From Gammaproteobacteria bacterium (GTDB lineage: Bacteria > Pseudomonadota > Gammaproteobacteria > Xanthomonadales > Rhodanobacteraceae), in the NCBI GenBank assembly GCA_004295005.1, contig SHNG01000182.1, positions 1-49,732 on the forward strand: a stretch of DNA of 49,732 nucleotides. Reading direction: 5' to 3'. Below, piece by piece: positions 22,866 to 46,864 of the stretch. Numbering within the stretch: position 1 is the stretch's first letter; each line of letters opens with the position of its first letter. The notes under the pieces are model-generated. The model ran no database searches. It was given only the letters and a program-made list of their open reading frames with translations, and was not told the DNA's origin. The translations under genes were made by a program, and so were the position numbers.

Positions 22866-22889
22866 CCCTCTCCCGCCTGCGGGAGAGGG
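22866..22889. repeat. CCCTCTCCCGC palindrome between tRNA-Lys and queC
   Basis: CCCTCTCCCGC and GCGGGAGAGGG form a perfect 11-bp inverted repeat with a 2-base spacer, followed by GCAAGCGGTGAGGGCC. It is the same module that occurs in the 7345-7608 island. It could also act as a barrier between queC and the tRNA gene. The rest of 22819-23038 and the stretch 22510-22743 show no gene. Confidence 0.75.
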
Positions 22890-42459: not shown

Positions 42460-43626
42460 ATGAATTTCCACGAATACCAAGCCAAGGAATTGTTCGCCGA
42501 GTACGGCATTGCGGTGCCGCCGGGCAAGGTTGCCTCATCGCCCGACCAGGCGGTTGACGCGGCCAAGGCGCTGGGCGGAACACAGTGGATGGTCAAGGCG
42601 CAGATCCATGCCGGCGGTCGCGGCAAGGCCGGCGGCGTCAAGTTCTGCAAATCGCTGGACGAGGTGCGTGCGGCAGCCAAGGGCATGCTCGGCACCCAGA
42701 TGGTCACCTACCAATCCGGCGGCCGCGCCCTGCCGGTGAACCTGGTGCTGGTCACCGATGCCACCGACATCGCCAAGGAACTGTATTTGTCGATCCTGGT
42801 TGACCGCGACAGCAAGGCGGTATCGTTCATCGCTTCGGCCCAGGGCGGCGTGGACATCGAGCAGGTGGCCAAGGAATCCCCGCAAGACATCCACACGCTG
42901 AAGATCGATTTCGTCGAAGGCCTGCAGCCGTACCAGTGCCGCAAGCTCGGTTTTGATCTCGGGCTCAATGCCAAGCAGACCGGCCAACTGGTCAAGATCA
43001 TGACCGGGCTGTACACGCTGTTCAACGAACGCGATCTCGCCCTGGTCGAACTCAACCCGTTGGCCATCCTCGCCTCCGGCGACCTGGCGACGCTGGATGG
43101 CAAGGTCAATTCCGACGACAACGCCGAGTTTCGCCATCCCAAGCTGGCTGCCATGCGCGACCTCAGCCAGGAAGACGCCGCCGAAGCGGCTGCCGTGCAG
43201 CACAACCTCAACTACGTGACCATGGACGGCAACATCGGCTGCATGGTCAATGGCGCCGGCCTGGCCATGGCCACCATGGACGTGATCAAGCTGGCCGGTG
43301 GCGAACCGGCAAACTTTCTCGACGTGGGCGGCGGCGCCACCAAGGAACGCGTCACCGAGGCGTTCAAATTGATCCTGTCCTCGGACAAGGTGCAGGCCAT
43401 CCTGGTCAACATCTTCGGCGGCATCGTGCGCTGTGACCTGATTGCCGAAGGCATCATCGCGGCGGTCAAGGAAGTGGGCCTGACCATTCCGGTGATCGTG
43501 CGCCTGCAGGGCACCAATGTCGAAAAAGGGCGCGAACTGCTGGCCAATTCCGGCCTCGCCATCACCCCGGCCGATGACCTCAACGACGCGGCGCAAAAAG
43601 CCGTGGCATCGGTCAAGGCCGCCTGA
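42460..43626 (+). CDS. sucC: succinyl-CoA synthetase (ADP-forming) beta subunit
   Basis: SucC forms the nucleotide-binding subunit of the TCA-cycle succinate-CoA ligase. The 388-residue product starts [20 protein letters not shown] with a GAGG box seven bases upstream. The ATP-grasp domain shows [16 protein letters not shown], and the C-terminal power-helix domain contains [17 protein letters not shown] and [14 protein letters not shown]. Its direction is divergent from the PilS-like kinase. sucD follows after 85 bases that contain a palindromic repeat. Confidence 0.98.
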
Positions 43627-43639
43627 ACCCGCAGGAATC

Positions 43640-43690
43640 GCCCCCTTCCGGCCTTCAGCCACCTTCCCCCGCGCTGCAGGGGAAGGGAAA
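43640..43690. repeat. palindromic repeat between sucC and sucD
   Basis: The segment begins GCCCCCTTCCGGCCTTC and contains ACCTTCCCCC-GCGCTGCA-GGGGAAGGG, a 7-8-bp stem. It resembles the 47-bp arms at 44603-44649 and 44735-44781 (same GCCCCCxTCCG...CACCTTCCCCCGC layout with a few differences). It occupies most of the sucC-sucD spacer. Confidence 0.75.
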
Positions 43691-43711
43691 GAAAATCCAA
43701 GGAACATATCC

Positions 43712-44584
43712 ATGAGCGTTTTGGTCAACAAGAACACCAAGGTCATCACCCAGGGCTTTACCGGTCAGCAGGGCACCTTCCATTCCGAGCAAGCGCTTGA
43801 ATACGGTACCAAGCTGGTCGGTGGCGTGACTCCGGGCAAGGGTGGCAGCTCGCACATCGGCTTGCCGGTGTTCAACACCGTGCACGATGCGGTCAAACAA
43901 ACCGGTGCGGATGCCTCGATGATCTTCGTGCCACCGCCGTATGCGGCCGATGCCATCCTCGAAGCAGCCGATGCCGGCATCAAGGTGATTGTCGCCATCA
44001 CCGAAGGCATCCCCGTACTCGACATGCTGCGCGTGAAGAATGTGCTCAAGCAGCATCCCGACACGGTTTTGATCGGACCCAACTGCCCAGGCATCATCAC
44101 CCCGGGTGAATGCAAGATCGGCATCATGCCCGGCCACATCCACAAGCCAGGCAAGGTCGGCATCGTTTCGCGCTCGGGCACATTGACCTATGAAGCGGTA
44201 TTCCAGACCACCAACGTCGGCCTCGGCCAGTCCACCTGCATCGGCATTGGCGGCGATCCGATCAATGGCCTCAATTTCATCGACTGCCTGAAGCGCTTCC
44301 AGGACGATGCGCAGACCGAAGGCATCATCATGGTTGGCGAAATCGGAGGCAGCGCCGAGGAAGATGCCGCCGAGTTCATCGCCCAGTACGTGAAGAAGCC
44401 GGTGGTCGCCTTCATTGCCGGCGCCTCGGCTCCGGCAGGCAAGCGCATGGGCCACGCCGGTGCCATCATCTCCGGCGGCAAGGGCACTGCCGCCGCCAAG
44501 TTCGCCGCGCTGGAGAAGGCTGGCGTGACCACGGTGAAATCACCAGCAGACCTCGGCAAGACACTCGCCGCGAAGATGAAGTAA
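43712..44584 (+). CDS. sucD: succinyl-CoA synthetase alpha subunit
   Basis: SucD carries the CoA site and the phosphohistidine. The ATG at 43712, preceded by AAGGAAC, gives 290 residues starting [21 protein letters not shown]. The Rossmann-like CoA-binding part contains [18 protein letters not shown] and the catalytic His lies in [33 protein letters not shown] is the conserved central segment. It is separated from sucC by a repeat, and another repeat pair follows its stop. Confidence 0.98.
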
Positions 44585-44602
44585 GACCAGCAGAAAAAGC
44601 TT

Positions 44603-44781
44603 GCCCCCATCCGCCTTCGGCACCTTCCCCCGCTGCGCAGGGGAAGGAAAGGTCAAGCGAAACAGGTTCTGCCATGCTTGGTTTGCCTAACGCCTCATCC
44701 TCGACAATCATCCCAAATAATAGCGGGTATGCTGTTCCTTCCCCTGCGCAGCGGGGGAAGGTGCCAAAGGCGGATGGGGGC
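44603..44781. repeat. 47-bp inverted repeat pair with 85-base spacer
   Basis: The left arm (44603-44649) begins GCCCCCATCCGCCTTCGG; the right arm (44735-44781) is its reverse complement with one mismatch in 47 bases (C versus T at arm base 16). Each arm also contains an internal palindrome CCTTCCCC...GGGGAAGG. The 85-base spacer has no gene. The right arm ends 21 bases before the DUF559 start codon. The layout resembles a bacterial REP doublet (BIME) or a MITE. Confidence 0.85.
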
Positions 44782-44802
44782 GCTTTGGACTGAAGGATGC
44801 CC

Positions 44803-45153
44803 ATGCGAAAGGACGCGAAAACAAGGTTTGCACGCAAGCTTCGCGCAACCATGACCAATGCCGAAACTCGACTCTGGTTTCGTTTGCGGCGCAAACAGCT
44901 CGGTGGGTTTCGCTTCCGGCGTCAACATCCCATCGGCCGATTCATCGTCGATTTCGCTTGCCCGGAAGCCTGCCTGGCCATTGAACTTGATGGTAGCCAG
45001 CATCTCGATTCCCACAGCGATCAGGATCGCGACTCTGCCATTCGCGAATCGGGCTTTCGCATCCTGCGCTTCTGGAATGACGATGTCCTGATGAACACCG
45101 ATTCGGTGCTCGATACCATCTTGGCTGCGCTATCCCCGAATATGGCCATATAG
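44803..45153 (+). CDS. DUF559 protein, Vsr-like nuclease fold
   Basis: The ATG at 44803, six bases after AAGG, gives 116 residues; an in-frame ATG two codons earlier is also possible. The sequence has RATMTNAETRLWFRLRRKQL, GFRFRRQHPIGRFIVDFACP, then LAIELDGSQH and GFRILRFWNDDVL, the DUF559 (PF04480) pattern. The family belongs to the PD-(D/E)XK/Vsr-like superfamily; the Asp in IVDF and Glu-x-Asp in IELDG are candidate catalytic residues. Its biological role is not established. It sits directly downstream of a pair of long inverted repeats. Confidence 0.88.
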   Translation: MRKDAKTRFARKLRATMTNAETRLWFRLRRKQLGGFRFRRQHPIGRFIVDFACPEACLAIELDGSQHLDSHSDQDRDSAIRESGFRILRFWNDDVLMNTDSVLDTILAALSPNMAI

Positions 45154-45202
45154 GATAAAGCTGCGCGGTCAGCAATGACCTGCTTGGCCGTAAACTACGC
45201 AG

Positions 45203-46864
45203 ATGACAATCCTGCGCATCGCCCTCGCCCAGTTCGATTTCCCCGTGGGTGCCGTTCAAGCCAATGCCTCGCGCATTGCCGCGCTGATTGCCGAAGCCCG
45301 CGATCTGCACCGCGCCGACGTGGTGCTTTTTCCGGAATTGTGCATCTGCGGCTATCCGCCGGAAGACCTGTTGCTGCGCCCCGGCTTTCTTGCCGAATGC
45401 AGTGCCGCCATCGAGCGCGTTGCGCAGGAAGTCCAGGGCATTGTTGCGGTGGTTGGCTGGCCACAGTCTGCTGGTGCTGTGGTGTACAACGCCGTCAGCA
45501 TCCTTCGCGACGGCGCCGTGGAAACCACATATCGCAAACGCGAGTTGCCGAACTACGCGGTGTTCGACGAGCGTCGCTATTTCGAGGTCGATCCGGACGG
45601 CGAGACCTGCGTGTTCGAGGTCAATGGCACGCGCCTGGGCGTGGTGATCTGCGAAGACTTCTGGTTTGCCGAACCCGCCGCTGCCTGCGCAAAAGCCGGT
45701 GCCGAACTGTTGCTGGTGGCCAACGCCTCGCCATTCGAACGCGACAAACATGCGCAGCGCGATGCCCTGCTCGCCACGCGCGTTGCGGAAACCGGCATGG
45801 GGGTGGCTTACCTGAATCTCGTCGGAGGCCAGGACGCCCTGGTCTTTGACGGTGCATCGGTACTCGCCGACGGCAATGGCCATGTGCATCCGGCGGCCCG
45901 TGCCTTCCAGGACCATTGGCTGGTGGCCGACTTCGACGCCTCCACGCGCACCTTCAATGCCGTGCACTGGCCGGTCGAGGAAGACGATGGTCGCGACGCG
46001 CTGGCTTGGCGCGCGATTGTGCGCGGTACCCGCGATTACTGCGCCAAGAATCGTTTCAGCCAGGTCTGGATCGGACTTTCCGGCGGCATCGATTCCGCAC
46101 TGGTGCTTGCTGTTGCCGTGGATGCACTGGGCGCAGACAAGGTGACCGGGGTGCGCCTGCCTTCGCGATACACCTCGGACTTGAGCAACGATCTTGCCGA
46201 AGCACAGGCGCGCGCCGCTGGAGTGCGCCTGCTGACCATTCCCATCGAGTCGCCCTTTCGCGGGTTCAGCGAGGCGCTGGCATCAACATTCGAAGGCCGC
46301 GCGGCCGATACCACCGAGGAAAACCTGCAATCGCGCTGTCGCGGCGCGATCCTGATGGCGCTGGCCAACAAGTTTGGCGGGCTGCTGTTGACCACCGGCA
46401 ACAAGAGTGAGTATGCGGTGGGCTACGCCACCATCTACGGCGACATGTGTGGCGGTTACGCACCGATCAAGGATCTCTACAAGACCGAAGTATTCGCCCT
46501 CGCCCGTTGGCGCAACGGCGCCAGCCAGAATCCCGAATCCCGCATCCCGAATCCCACCTCTTGGATCATTCCACCGCAAGTGATTTCGCGGCCACCTTCG
46601 GCGGAACTGCGCGAGAACCAGACCGACCAGGATTCACTGCCGCCTTATGAGGTGCTGGACGGCATCCTCCTGCGTCACATCGATCTGGAGCAGTCACGCG
46701 AGGAAATCATCCAGGCCGGATTCGATGAGGCGGTGGTCAACCGCGTCCTGCACCTGGTGCGCATCAGCGAATGGAAACGTCACCAGGCGGCGCCCGGGCC
46801 CAAGGTTTCGCGGCGTGCGTTTGGTCGCGAACGCCGCTACCCGATCAGCTCGGGCTGGACCTGA
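45203..46864 (+). CDS. nadE: glutamine-dependent NAD+ synthetase
   Basis: NadE amidates nicotinic acid adenine dinucleotide using glutamine. The 553-residue product has an N-terminal nitrilase-type glutaminase (about 1-260; Glu in VLFPELCICGY, Lys in TTYRKRELPNY, Cys in GVVICEDFWF) and a C-terminal synthetase domain with the PP-loop WIGLSGGIDSALVLAVA, then TTGNKSEYAVGYATIYGDMCGG. Within the synthetase part, residues about 439-455 (NGASQNPESRIPNPTSW) are encoded by a CCCGAATCCC repeat and look like an insertion between KTEVFALARWR and IIPPQVISRPPSAEL. The frame is intact. The gene ends eight bases from the convergent bamD stop. Confidence 0.96.
   Translation: MTILRIALAQFDFPVGAVQANASRIAALIAEARDLHRADVVLFPELCICGYPPEDLLLRPGFLAECSAAIERVAQEVQGIVAVVGWPQSAGAVVYNAVSILRDGAVETTYRKRELPNYAVFDERRYFEVDPDGETCVFEVNGTRLGVVICEDFWFAEPAAACAKAGAELLLVANASPFERDKHAQRDALLATRVAETGMGVAYLNLVGGQDALVFDGASVLADGNGHVHPAARAFQDHWLVADFDASTRTFNAVHWPVEEDDGRDALAWRAIVRGTRDYCAKNRFSQVWIGLSGGIDSALVLAVAVDALGADKVTGVRLPSRYTSDLSNDLAEAQARAAGVRLLTIPIESPFRGFSEALASTFEGRAADTTEENLQSRCRGAILMALANKFGGLLLTTGNKSEYAVGYATIYGDMCGGYAPIKDLYKTEVFALARWRNGASQNPESRIPNPTSWIIPPQVISRPPSAELRENQTDQDSLPPYEVLDGILLRHIDLEQSREEIIQAGFDEAVVNRVLHLVRISEWKRHQAAPGPKVSRRAFGRERRYPISSGWT
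46528..46555. repeat. CCCGAATCCC-type repeat inside nadE
   Basis: GAATCCCGAATCCC and GCATCCCGAATCCC lie in tandem within the nadE frame and encode N-P-E-S-R-I-P-N-P. The same motif occurs in non-coding DNA at 7590-7606 and 31087-31119 and, inverted, at 30968-30993. Confidence 0.85.

Follow-up and report, generated by a model that had tools for sequence, protein, structure and literature searches.

Genes for DUF559 proteins, which databases describe only as of 'unknown function', lie beside or between dispersed, putatively triplex-forming repeats in several phyla, and DUF559 is therefore the strongest candidate for the enzyme, hitherto missing, by which these repeats are spread or maintained. 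In many bacteria, intergenic space is commonly populated by short palindromic repeats. By analogy, the arrangement described here would most likely pair repeats with an enzyme as REP/RAYT does, the enzyme being of Vsr type, and we think it probable, though by no means settled, that it is a single-gene element, with a Vsr/EDxHD-type nuclease encoded between inverted hairpin/triplex ends, with dispersed palindromes derived from it, and with maintenance and spread driven by the enzyme. The wider claim remains tentative and, in our estimate, falls somewhat short of an even chance, namely that these are an unrecognised class of minimal mobile elements, present in several phyla, in which a lone DUF559 enzyme with a homing-endonuclease fold recognises the triplex/hairpin ends and drives, besides the cassette that encodes it, hundreds of pairs without a gene; this would explain where the intrastrand triplex motifs seen in many genomes, TMECO with YcjD of E. 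coli among them, come from. The triplex class had no known mobility enzyme, and a link with DUF559 would give a function to both, would make repeat spread testable in E. coli K-12 (through ycjD), and would set a second partnership of repeat and enzyme, the enzyme being unrelated, alongside REP/RAYT.

The DUF559 locus of the window

The window (the whole 49.7-kb stretch of DNA analysed) carries a DUF559 (PF04480) nuclease gene of 118 aa at 44797..45153 on the + strand, with ATG 44797 or ATG 44803 as its start codon. Upstream lie two arms, at 44603..44649 (- strand) and 44735..44781 (+ strand), with 85 nt between them. They are inverted copies complementary at 46/47 bases, as the original prediction had said of a 47-bp pair with one mismatch, and they rank first among the window's 11 listed inverted pairs; the second-ranked pair (39 nt, 79%) includes the third copy described below, and the remaining nine are all 32 nt or shorter. 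Their near-identity may reflect a recent duplication or gene conversion, as the original prediction had it. Each arm contains the palindrome claimed for it, a CCTTCCCC-N9-GGGGAAGG hairpin, together with a small GCC/GGC hairpin. In the gene-proximal right arm the main hairpin occupies 44737-44761, the small hairpin (TGCCAAAGGC) 44762-44771 and a putative third-strand tract, GGATGGGG, 44772-44779, all on the + strand and with the tract facing the gene; the arm ends 15 bases before ATG 44797 and 21 before ATG 44803, the predicted spacing of 21 bases holding for the latter. The tract mirrors the purine arm GGGGAAGG with one A -> T change and can, to judge from its letters, supply the third strand for an intrastrand triplex, and the right arm meets the plan of the triplex motif, with GGGGAAGG as stem and GGATGGGG as mirrored purine third strand. 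The tract of the left arm (44605-44612, - strand) points away from the gene. A third, diverged copy does lie, as foreseen, in the sucC-sucD spacer at about 43639-43690 (- strand, hairpin at 43662-43686). Folding gave a z of about -2 for each arm and -1 for the third copy.

There is no arm or palindrome on the 3' side of the gene, in the interval 45154..45202 before nadE, so the window cassette lacks a second end; it retains the 5' end of the typical unit and an additional outward-facing copy, and is most likely a degenerate copy of the single-gene element. Elsewhere in the window a palindrome, CCCTCTCCCGC-CT-GCGGGAGAGGG (22866..22889), resembles the family of dispersed palindromes that is commonest in this genome. 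Rfam gave no match in 43500-45300 at E 0.5, and PADLOC and PHROGs gave only weak partial hits.

The DUF559 protein

The identification of the reading frame as a DUF559 gene was borne out by its match to PF04480 (3.7e-38; 130.2 bits against a curated cut-off of 20.6). The residues E21, D50, E61, D63 and H67 (numbered from ATG 44803) are present in the window protein and invariant in 77/77 aligned copies, E. coli YcjD among them as well as the window protein, and we infer that they form a putative catalytic core. In Foldseek, the AlphaFold2 model of the window protein (pLDDT 82, pTM 0.76) matched 3HRL, an uncharacterised endonuclease-like protein (E 1.7e-8, TM 0.89), the catalytic domain of I-Bth0305I (3r3p_B; E 2.9e-4, TM 0.72 by target length) and, weakly, Vsr (1vsr; E 0.099, TM 0.47 by target length); the profile search found 3HRL at 8.6e-43 and 3R3P at 7.9e-4. 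The predicted fold of DUF559 matches the type of the EDxHD homing endonuclease I-Bth0305I, and more weakly that of Vsr, but the DUF559 gene differs from both in being flanked by repeats, and a protein of about 110-140 aa has no room for the extended DNA-binding regions of I-Bth0305I, as far as these are described in the accessible part of PMC3943268. A cyanobacterial DUF559 gene has been assigned to the EDxHD homing family, according to the portion of that report available (PMC9403480). Distant relatives of the window protein in NCBIfam are ProA and Hhe, both large anti-phage proteins, and the profile search gave no match between the window protein and PF01797, the HUH/Y1 tyrosine transposase family.

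Linkage of DUF559 genes and palindromes

To place the locus in context, we surveyed 147 relatives of the window's genome, where a pyrimidine-arm palindrome lies no more than 250 bp from 102/112 strong DUF559 loci, and on both sides of 65; the same test scored none of the 30 Y1-transposase loci, none of the 29 sucD loci and none of the 13 weak DUF559 matches. This is the census of DUF559 genes against background for which the original prediction had called, and its outcome (102/112 against 0/72) supports the linkage; because the control loci score 0, the arms are not equally abundant beside unrelated genes, and the reservation that co-localisation could be chance does not hold. The strong loci comprise all DUF559 matches down to E 7.8e-22, three tandem matches being counted as one locus and not every match being proved to stand alone. 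The weak controls are 13 of the weaker DUF559 matches, 10 of them in frames of more than 1500 aa; the PF01797 controls are the 30 best-scoring loci (best match per genome), a mixture of IS200-type and RAYT-type; and the sucD loci come from a search of 60 genomes. DUF559 fragments, which were counted apart, have a palindrome nearby in 3/7.

The linkage is not confined to these relatives. Among named loci (the 80 best out of at least 575; most are from Proteobacteria, others from Nitrospirales, Phycisphaeraceae, Binatia and further groups), a palindrome lies near 67/80, on both sides in 46, and near 63/76 (43 on both sides) after deduplication, in which 4/80 named loci and 1/28 phylum-search loci identical to census loci were dropped. 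A nearby palindrome is absent at 10/112 strong loci of the relatives and 13/80 named loci. The further loci from the phylum search have a palindrome at 28/28, on both sides in 12, or at 27/27 without the one census locus. The Deinococcus psychrotolerans DUF559 locus has CCTCCCCC...GGGGGAGG on both sides, and the single DUF559 loci of Synechocystis, Azospirillum and Sphingomonas have a palindrome nearby too; that of Picosynechococcus is doubtful, and the nearest palindromes to the Neisseria locus lie 177 and 290 bp downstream. The palindrome class was first recognised by eye in 32 loci, and a count of hairpins of any sequence (stem at least 9, loop 3-12) is free of such sequence pre-selection. 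In the 80 named loci, hairpin density is 5.77/kb within 100 bp of the DUF559 match (92 in 15,954 bp), 2.56/kb at 100-200 bp, 0.83/kb at 200-300 bp and 0.35/kb beyond 300 bp (140 in 396,036 bp); in the 76 deduplicated loci it is 5.6/kb up to 100 bp vs 0.34/kb beyond 300 bp. We regard the linkage between DUF559 genes and palindromes as being as firm as sequence data allow. The predicted cassette of repeat plus nuclease, REP/RAYT-like with another enzyme, fits these results, with palindromes near 102/112 and 63/76 loci.

Architecture of the flanking ends and their dispersed copies

The palindromes are arranged about the gene in an ordered way. When the nearest palindrome on each side is compared together with 35 bp of context, the two copies stand in inverted orientation at 95 loci and in direct orientation at 13 (188 non-duplicate loci). 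A third-strand tract, defined by at least 85% G.G:C or A/T.A:T triads, is present on 260/351 palindromes near DUF559, where shuffled flanks give a mean of 13 and a maximum of 21, and among the nearest palindromes the tract is oriented towards the gene in 184, away from it in 21, both ways in 4 and absent in 64. Inversion and tract orientation together imply that the typical unit would read hairpin-(small hairpin)-purine tract-gene-pyrimidine tract-(small hairpin)-hairpin.

Cassettes and dispersed copies share the whole end in the four other genomes in which they were compared directly. In one of these (G433), a dispersed pair (L358) and the DUF559 cassette (L362) alike show CCTTCTCCCCTTGCGGGAGAAGG - small hairpin - CGGATGAGGGGTCGC; in G246 the cassette and dispersed copies are alike in ...GGGAGGGGGTCGGGC, and in G123 the likeness extends beyond the third strand. 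Over five genomes, that of the window (G000) included, 21/26 dispersed ends match DUF559 ends of their own genome best (p 0.0025); the five exceptions, for which ends of other genomes match better, come from G433 and G166, which belong to one genus. The most frequent family of G000 and of its closest relative (G003) is a 127-bp inverted pair (L229:1501-1627; G000:C5:59321 onward), with 63 blast matches in G000 and 53 in G003, partial copies and flank matches included. It has the same plan as the DUF559 ends and loops unlike those of both resident G000 cassettes, and in this assembly, which is 87% complete, it would count as an orphan family, one that would predict a DUF559 gene with CCAG/CTGG-loop ends in the missing part. 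The loops of the second G000 cassette (C36) occur, among the places listed, only at that cassette. Another palindromic repeat of about 115 bp (L003, 2429-2547) has dozens of nearly identical copies across G000 and G003, and a GTAGGAGCG...CGCTCCTAC-like repeat lies in the sucC-sucD spacer of G003.

The motif follows the protein lineage

Between genomes, protein distance and motif distance covary (rho 0.23; maximum of 500 permutations 0.11; 164 non-duplicate loci). For genes whose nearest relative sits in another genome and is not a paralogue of their own genome, the motif is closer to that of the closest relative elsewhere in 50, to that of the own-genome paralogue in 7, and tied in 1. Deduplication made little difference to the counts for inversion (97 v 14 before), tract orientation (189 v 22), tract presence (268/361) and closest relatives (51 v 6). 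Joint inheritance of flanks and gene explains part of this covariation between loci. A result less open to joint inheritance, because the whole genome is counted, is that 15 genomes with CTTC-type DUF559 flanks have a median of 49 CCTTCNCC (CCTTC) repeats and 51 genomes with other types a median of 9 (p 2.4e-5).

Co-occurrence in genomes

The palindromes were counted across whole genomes by the pattern CCYYCYCC-N3..9-GGRGRRGG, which occurs 84 times in the window's genome vs 0 for the reversed control; there, CCTTCNCC-N4..14-GGNGAAGG occurs 20 times and its reversed control 0 times. The 71 relatives with a strong DUF559 match (E below 1e-10) have a median of 84 palindromes, the 68 without one a median of 1, and at least 10 palindromes are found in 63/71 and 8/68, respectively (Fisher p 1.9e-21); the 8 relatives with weak matches only have 0-21. 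In 299 genomes of the phylum, an excess of at least 15 over the reversed control is found in 59/80 genomes with the gene, 7/191 without it and 1/28 with weak matches (with vs without, p 1.4e-33). Genomes with weak matches only (8 and 28) were excluded from the contrasts, and the two sets have seven genomes in common. These counts are not phylogenetically independent, except for the within-genus contrast, in which 11/13 genera holding both states agree with the prediction (sign test p 0.022, Wilcoxon p 0.0006). Exceptions occur in both directions: 8/68 relatives and 7/191 phylum genomes have many palindromes despite having no gene, and 21/80 gene-bearing phylum genomes have no excess. Certain types of stem and loop escape the pattern, as in G008, where it finds 2 palindromes and CCTTCNCC-N4..14-GGNGAAGG finds 158. 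At one DUF559 locus (L162, in G157), downstream palindromes of the form CCCCTCTTT-GCT/GTT-AAAGAGGGG are of a stem type to which the genome-wide pattern is blind, and some low counts in the phylum set are therefore misses of the pattern.

The Y1 transposase (PF01797), matched in 109/147 relatives, is excluded as the driver of these counts. Genomes with both PF01797 and the DUF559 gene (n=52) have a median of 78.5 palindromes and those with the gene alone (n=19) a median of 86, while PF01797 without the gene (n=51) and neither (n=17) both give a median of 1. In the window's genome (assembly 87% complete) PF01797 has no match.

The triplex motif and ycjD in E. coli

On sequence grounds alone, the ends flanking DUF559 genes belong to the triplex motif (TM/TMECO) class of Holder et al., with triplex formation being inferred here. 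The PIT elements of Hoyne and Maher reportedly are of the same sequence class. As far as the accessible text of Holder et al. 2015 goes, there are 23 copies of the triplex motif in MG1655, with five inverted pairs, triplex formation of the E. coli TM was reported in vitro, and remnants of transposases or integrases were never found around the E. coli copies (PMC4666352). TMECO no. 9 (1,351,204-1,351,239) lies between fabI and ycjD (1,351,407-1,351,760), and ycjD is a DUF559 gene; a degenerate triplex motif overlaps its stop codon, and there is none 5' of it. The word ycjD is absent from the main text of PMC4666352. A 500-bp ycjD query has matches in 3365/5426 E. coli genomes. At the alx-sstT and ygfF-gcvP pairs, the shorter alleles are deletions between the motif halves, and alx-sstT also has a longer allele class with unrelated sequence (1-3 strains per class in each case). 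The shorter alleles agree with Holder et al. and with nuclease action, but also with plain replication slippage.

Search for insertion events and prior reports

No insertion event was observed, and none of the loci compared in G003 and E. coli offered a clean empty site. The sucD-nadE region of G003 has neither DUF559 nor the arms, but its spacer defies alignment with that of the window and has its own, different, degenerate triplex-like motif. At the G003 locus orthologous to L003 the arm is present in both genomes, and for L229 there is no aligned G003 orthologous site beyond the repeat, other relatives matching on one flank only. E. coli strains without ycjD were also considered and rejected as empty sites: in the three examined (L077, L078-L080), an efflux operon adjoins sapF instead. 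By eye, no target-site duplication was seen in the dispersed pairs of four genomes. One tblastn query with the window protein matched only 44/72,556 plasmids, so DUF559 is not a promiscuous transposon. No link between DUF559 and repeats was found in the open-licence literature, mostly available as titles and the beginnings of abstracts, and a paywalled report cannot be excluded; the words endonuclease, DUF and triplex are absent from PMC12306157.

Explanations for the association

How are these patterns best explained? Hairpins at gene ends are common in general, and one might take the palindromes for terminators of transcription, or for GC-rich hairpins that lie near small genes by chance. 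This can hardly be entertained, since the controls (0/72) refute it, palindromes lie upstream (147 loci) as well as downstream (133 loci), they bear a specific triplex third strand, and the pattern count in G000 is 84 vs 0 for its reversed control. DUF559 might instead be a passenger, the palindromes being moved in trans by a RAYT or other transposase with DUF559 as cargo; REP-RAYT is a known pair of such kind, and PF01797 matches are present in most of the relatives. Against this stand the absence of palindromes at all 30 PF01797 loci, which were the best-scoring and included both IS200-type and RAYT-type, the lack of any effect of PF01797 on palindrome counts, with a median of 86 in the 19 DUF559 genomes that have no PF01797 match (only PF01797 having been compared), and the lack of a match in the window's own, 87% complete genome, and we give the idea very little credence. 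We hold no higher an opinion of a methylation-linked very-short-patch mismatch repair enzyme, to which the repeats would be incidental. The Vsr-like fold speaks for it, as do the genetics of Caulobacter, where VsrA, a protein with a DUF559 domain, was interpreted as a mismatch-repair enzyme in the part of the report available (PMC12907096), but repeat linkage and co-occurrence would stay unexplained.

The most serious rival, which we consider unlikely without dismissing it, is a host enzyme that removes or resolves hairpins and triplexes, so that motif-rich genomes keep the gene while the motifs spread by other means and the position of the gene amid them reflects regulation or selection. Repair nickases include Vsr and other PD-(D/E)XK relatives, and few plasmids carry the gene. 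The profile of YcjD picks up Vsr (Kosinski et al. 2005, PMC1189080) and Caulobacter VsrA causes SOS when the methylase is missing (PMC12907096), both within the limits of the excerpts available. A host enzyme alone, however, leaves unexplained the two-sided inverted ends with a gene-facing third strand, the dispersed pairs with cassette ends, and the motif types that follow the protein lineage.

The single-gene element, which we prefer, would work as follows. Each end would combine a hairpin, in many cases joined by a second small one, with a purine tract folding back as the third strand of a triplex, and the dispersed single and paired palindromes would be non-autonomous derivatives with the same ends, in which a short spacer replaces the gene. 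The enzyme would most likely recognise an end when it is extruded as a hairpin/triplex, for example in single-stranded DNA at the replication fork, and would nick or cut next to it. The ends would then be maintained by a repair or copying step that draws on another element, in the manner of homing-like gene conversion, and would occasionally be spread by it. Within this mechanism the process could be transposition-like, or homing-like with the pair as a gene-less allele. Cleavage, the strand concerned, the copying route and the enzyme as the cause of spread are inferred, and so is movement itself. Counting against this reading are the want of any observed insertion or target duplication, the orphan families, the genomes rich in palindromes that have no gene, the DUF559 loci without a nearby palindrome, the gene-bearing genomes without an excess, the five dispersed ends matched better elsewhere, the rarity of the gene on plasmids and the mismatch-repair interpretation of Caulobacter VsrA.

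Comparison with known systems

Like REP/RAYT, the DUF559 system has a chromosomal gene flanked by dispersed palindromes, often in inverted pairs, within the same genome, and in both the repeat type follows the enzyme lineage, as it does among RAYTs (a likeness drawn from sources available only in part). The RAYT gene is mostly kept vertically, and its mobile partners are gene-less. Own-genome DUF559 paralogues are distant (only 3/44 pairs fall below a protein distance of 0.4, with the tandem triplet of G037 left out) and plasmid copies are rare, and DUF559 therefore resembles RAYT in behaviour. The enzymes differ, DUF559 being a predicted PD-(D/E)XK/Vsr-type nuclease and RAYT an HUH transposase, and so do the repeats, since the DUF559 ends have pyrimidine/purine stems and a triplex third strand, none of which was seen at the 30 Y1-transposase loci. 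The DUF559 system is thus like REP/RAYT in kind but not a member, because it fails the enzyme test (HUH/Y1). With the triplex motif the ends share a pyrimidine stem, a purine stem and a mirrored purine third strand, but Holder et al., in the text available, name no mobility gene, whereas a cognate nuclease is proposed here (PMC4666352). Gene-less DUF559-type pairs resemble MITEs in sharing their ends with a gene-bearing copy, and differ in that the ends are a hairpin plus triplex tract and that there is no classical transposase; no target duplication was seen in them by eye.

CGTC-tagged palindromes, of Caulobacter among others, are said to have no associated transposase gene in the part of PMC3733652 available, and the enzyme of this further class of repeats could be sought likewise. 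One DUF559 locus (L288; G037:C3:275814-277118) is a tandem triplet of copies with a 501-bp period. In 11/24 aligned DUF559 proteins the sequence terminates in translated repeat (...PHPNPLPxGER...), and reading frames that enter the downstream repeat with the C-terminus PHPNPLPxGERE (e.g. L017, L024, L031) may be annotation artefacts, a warning for annotators.
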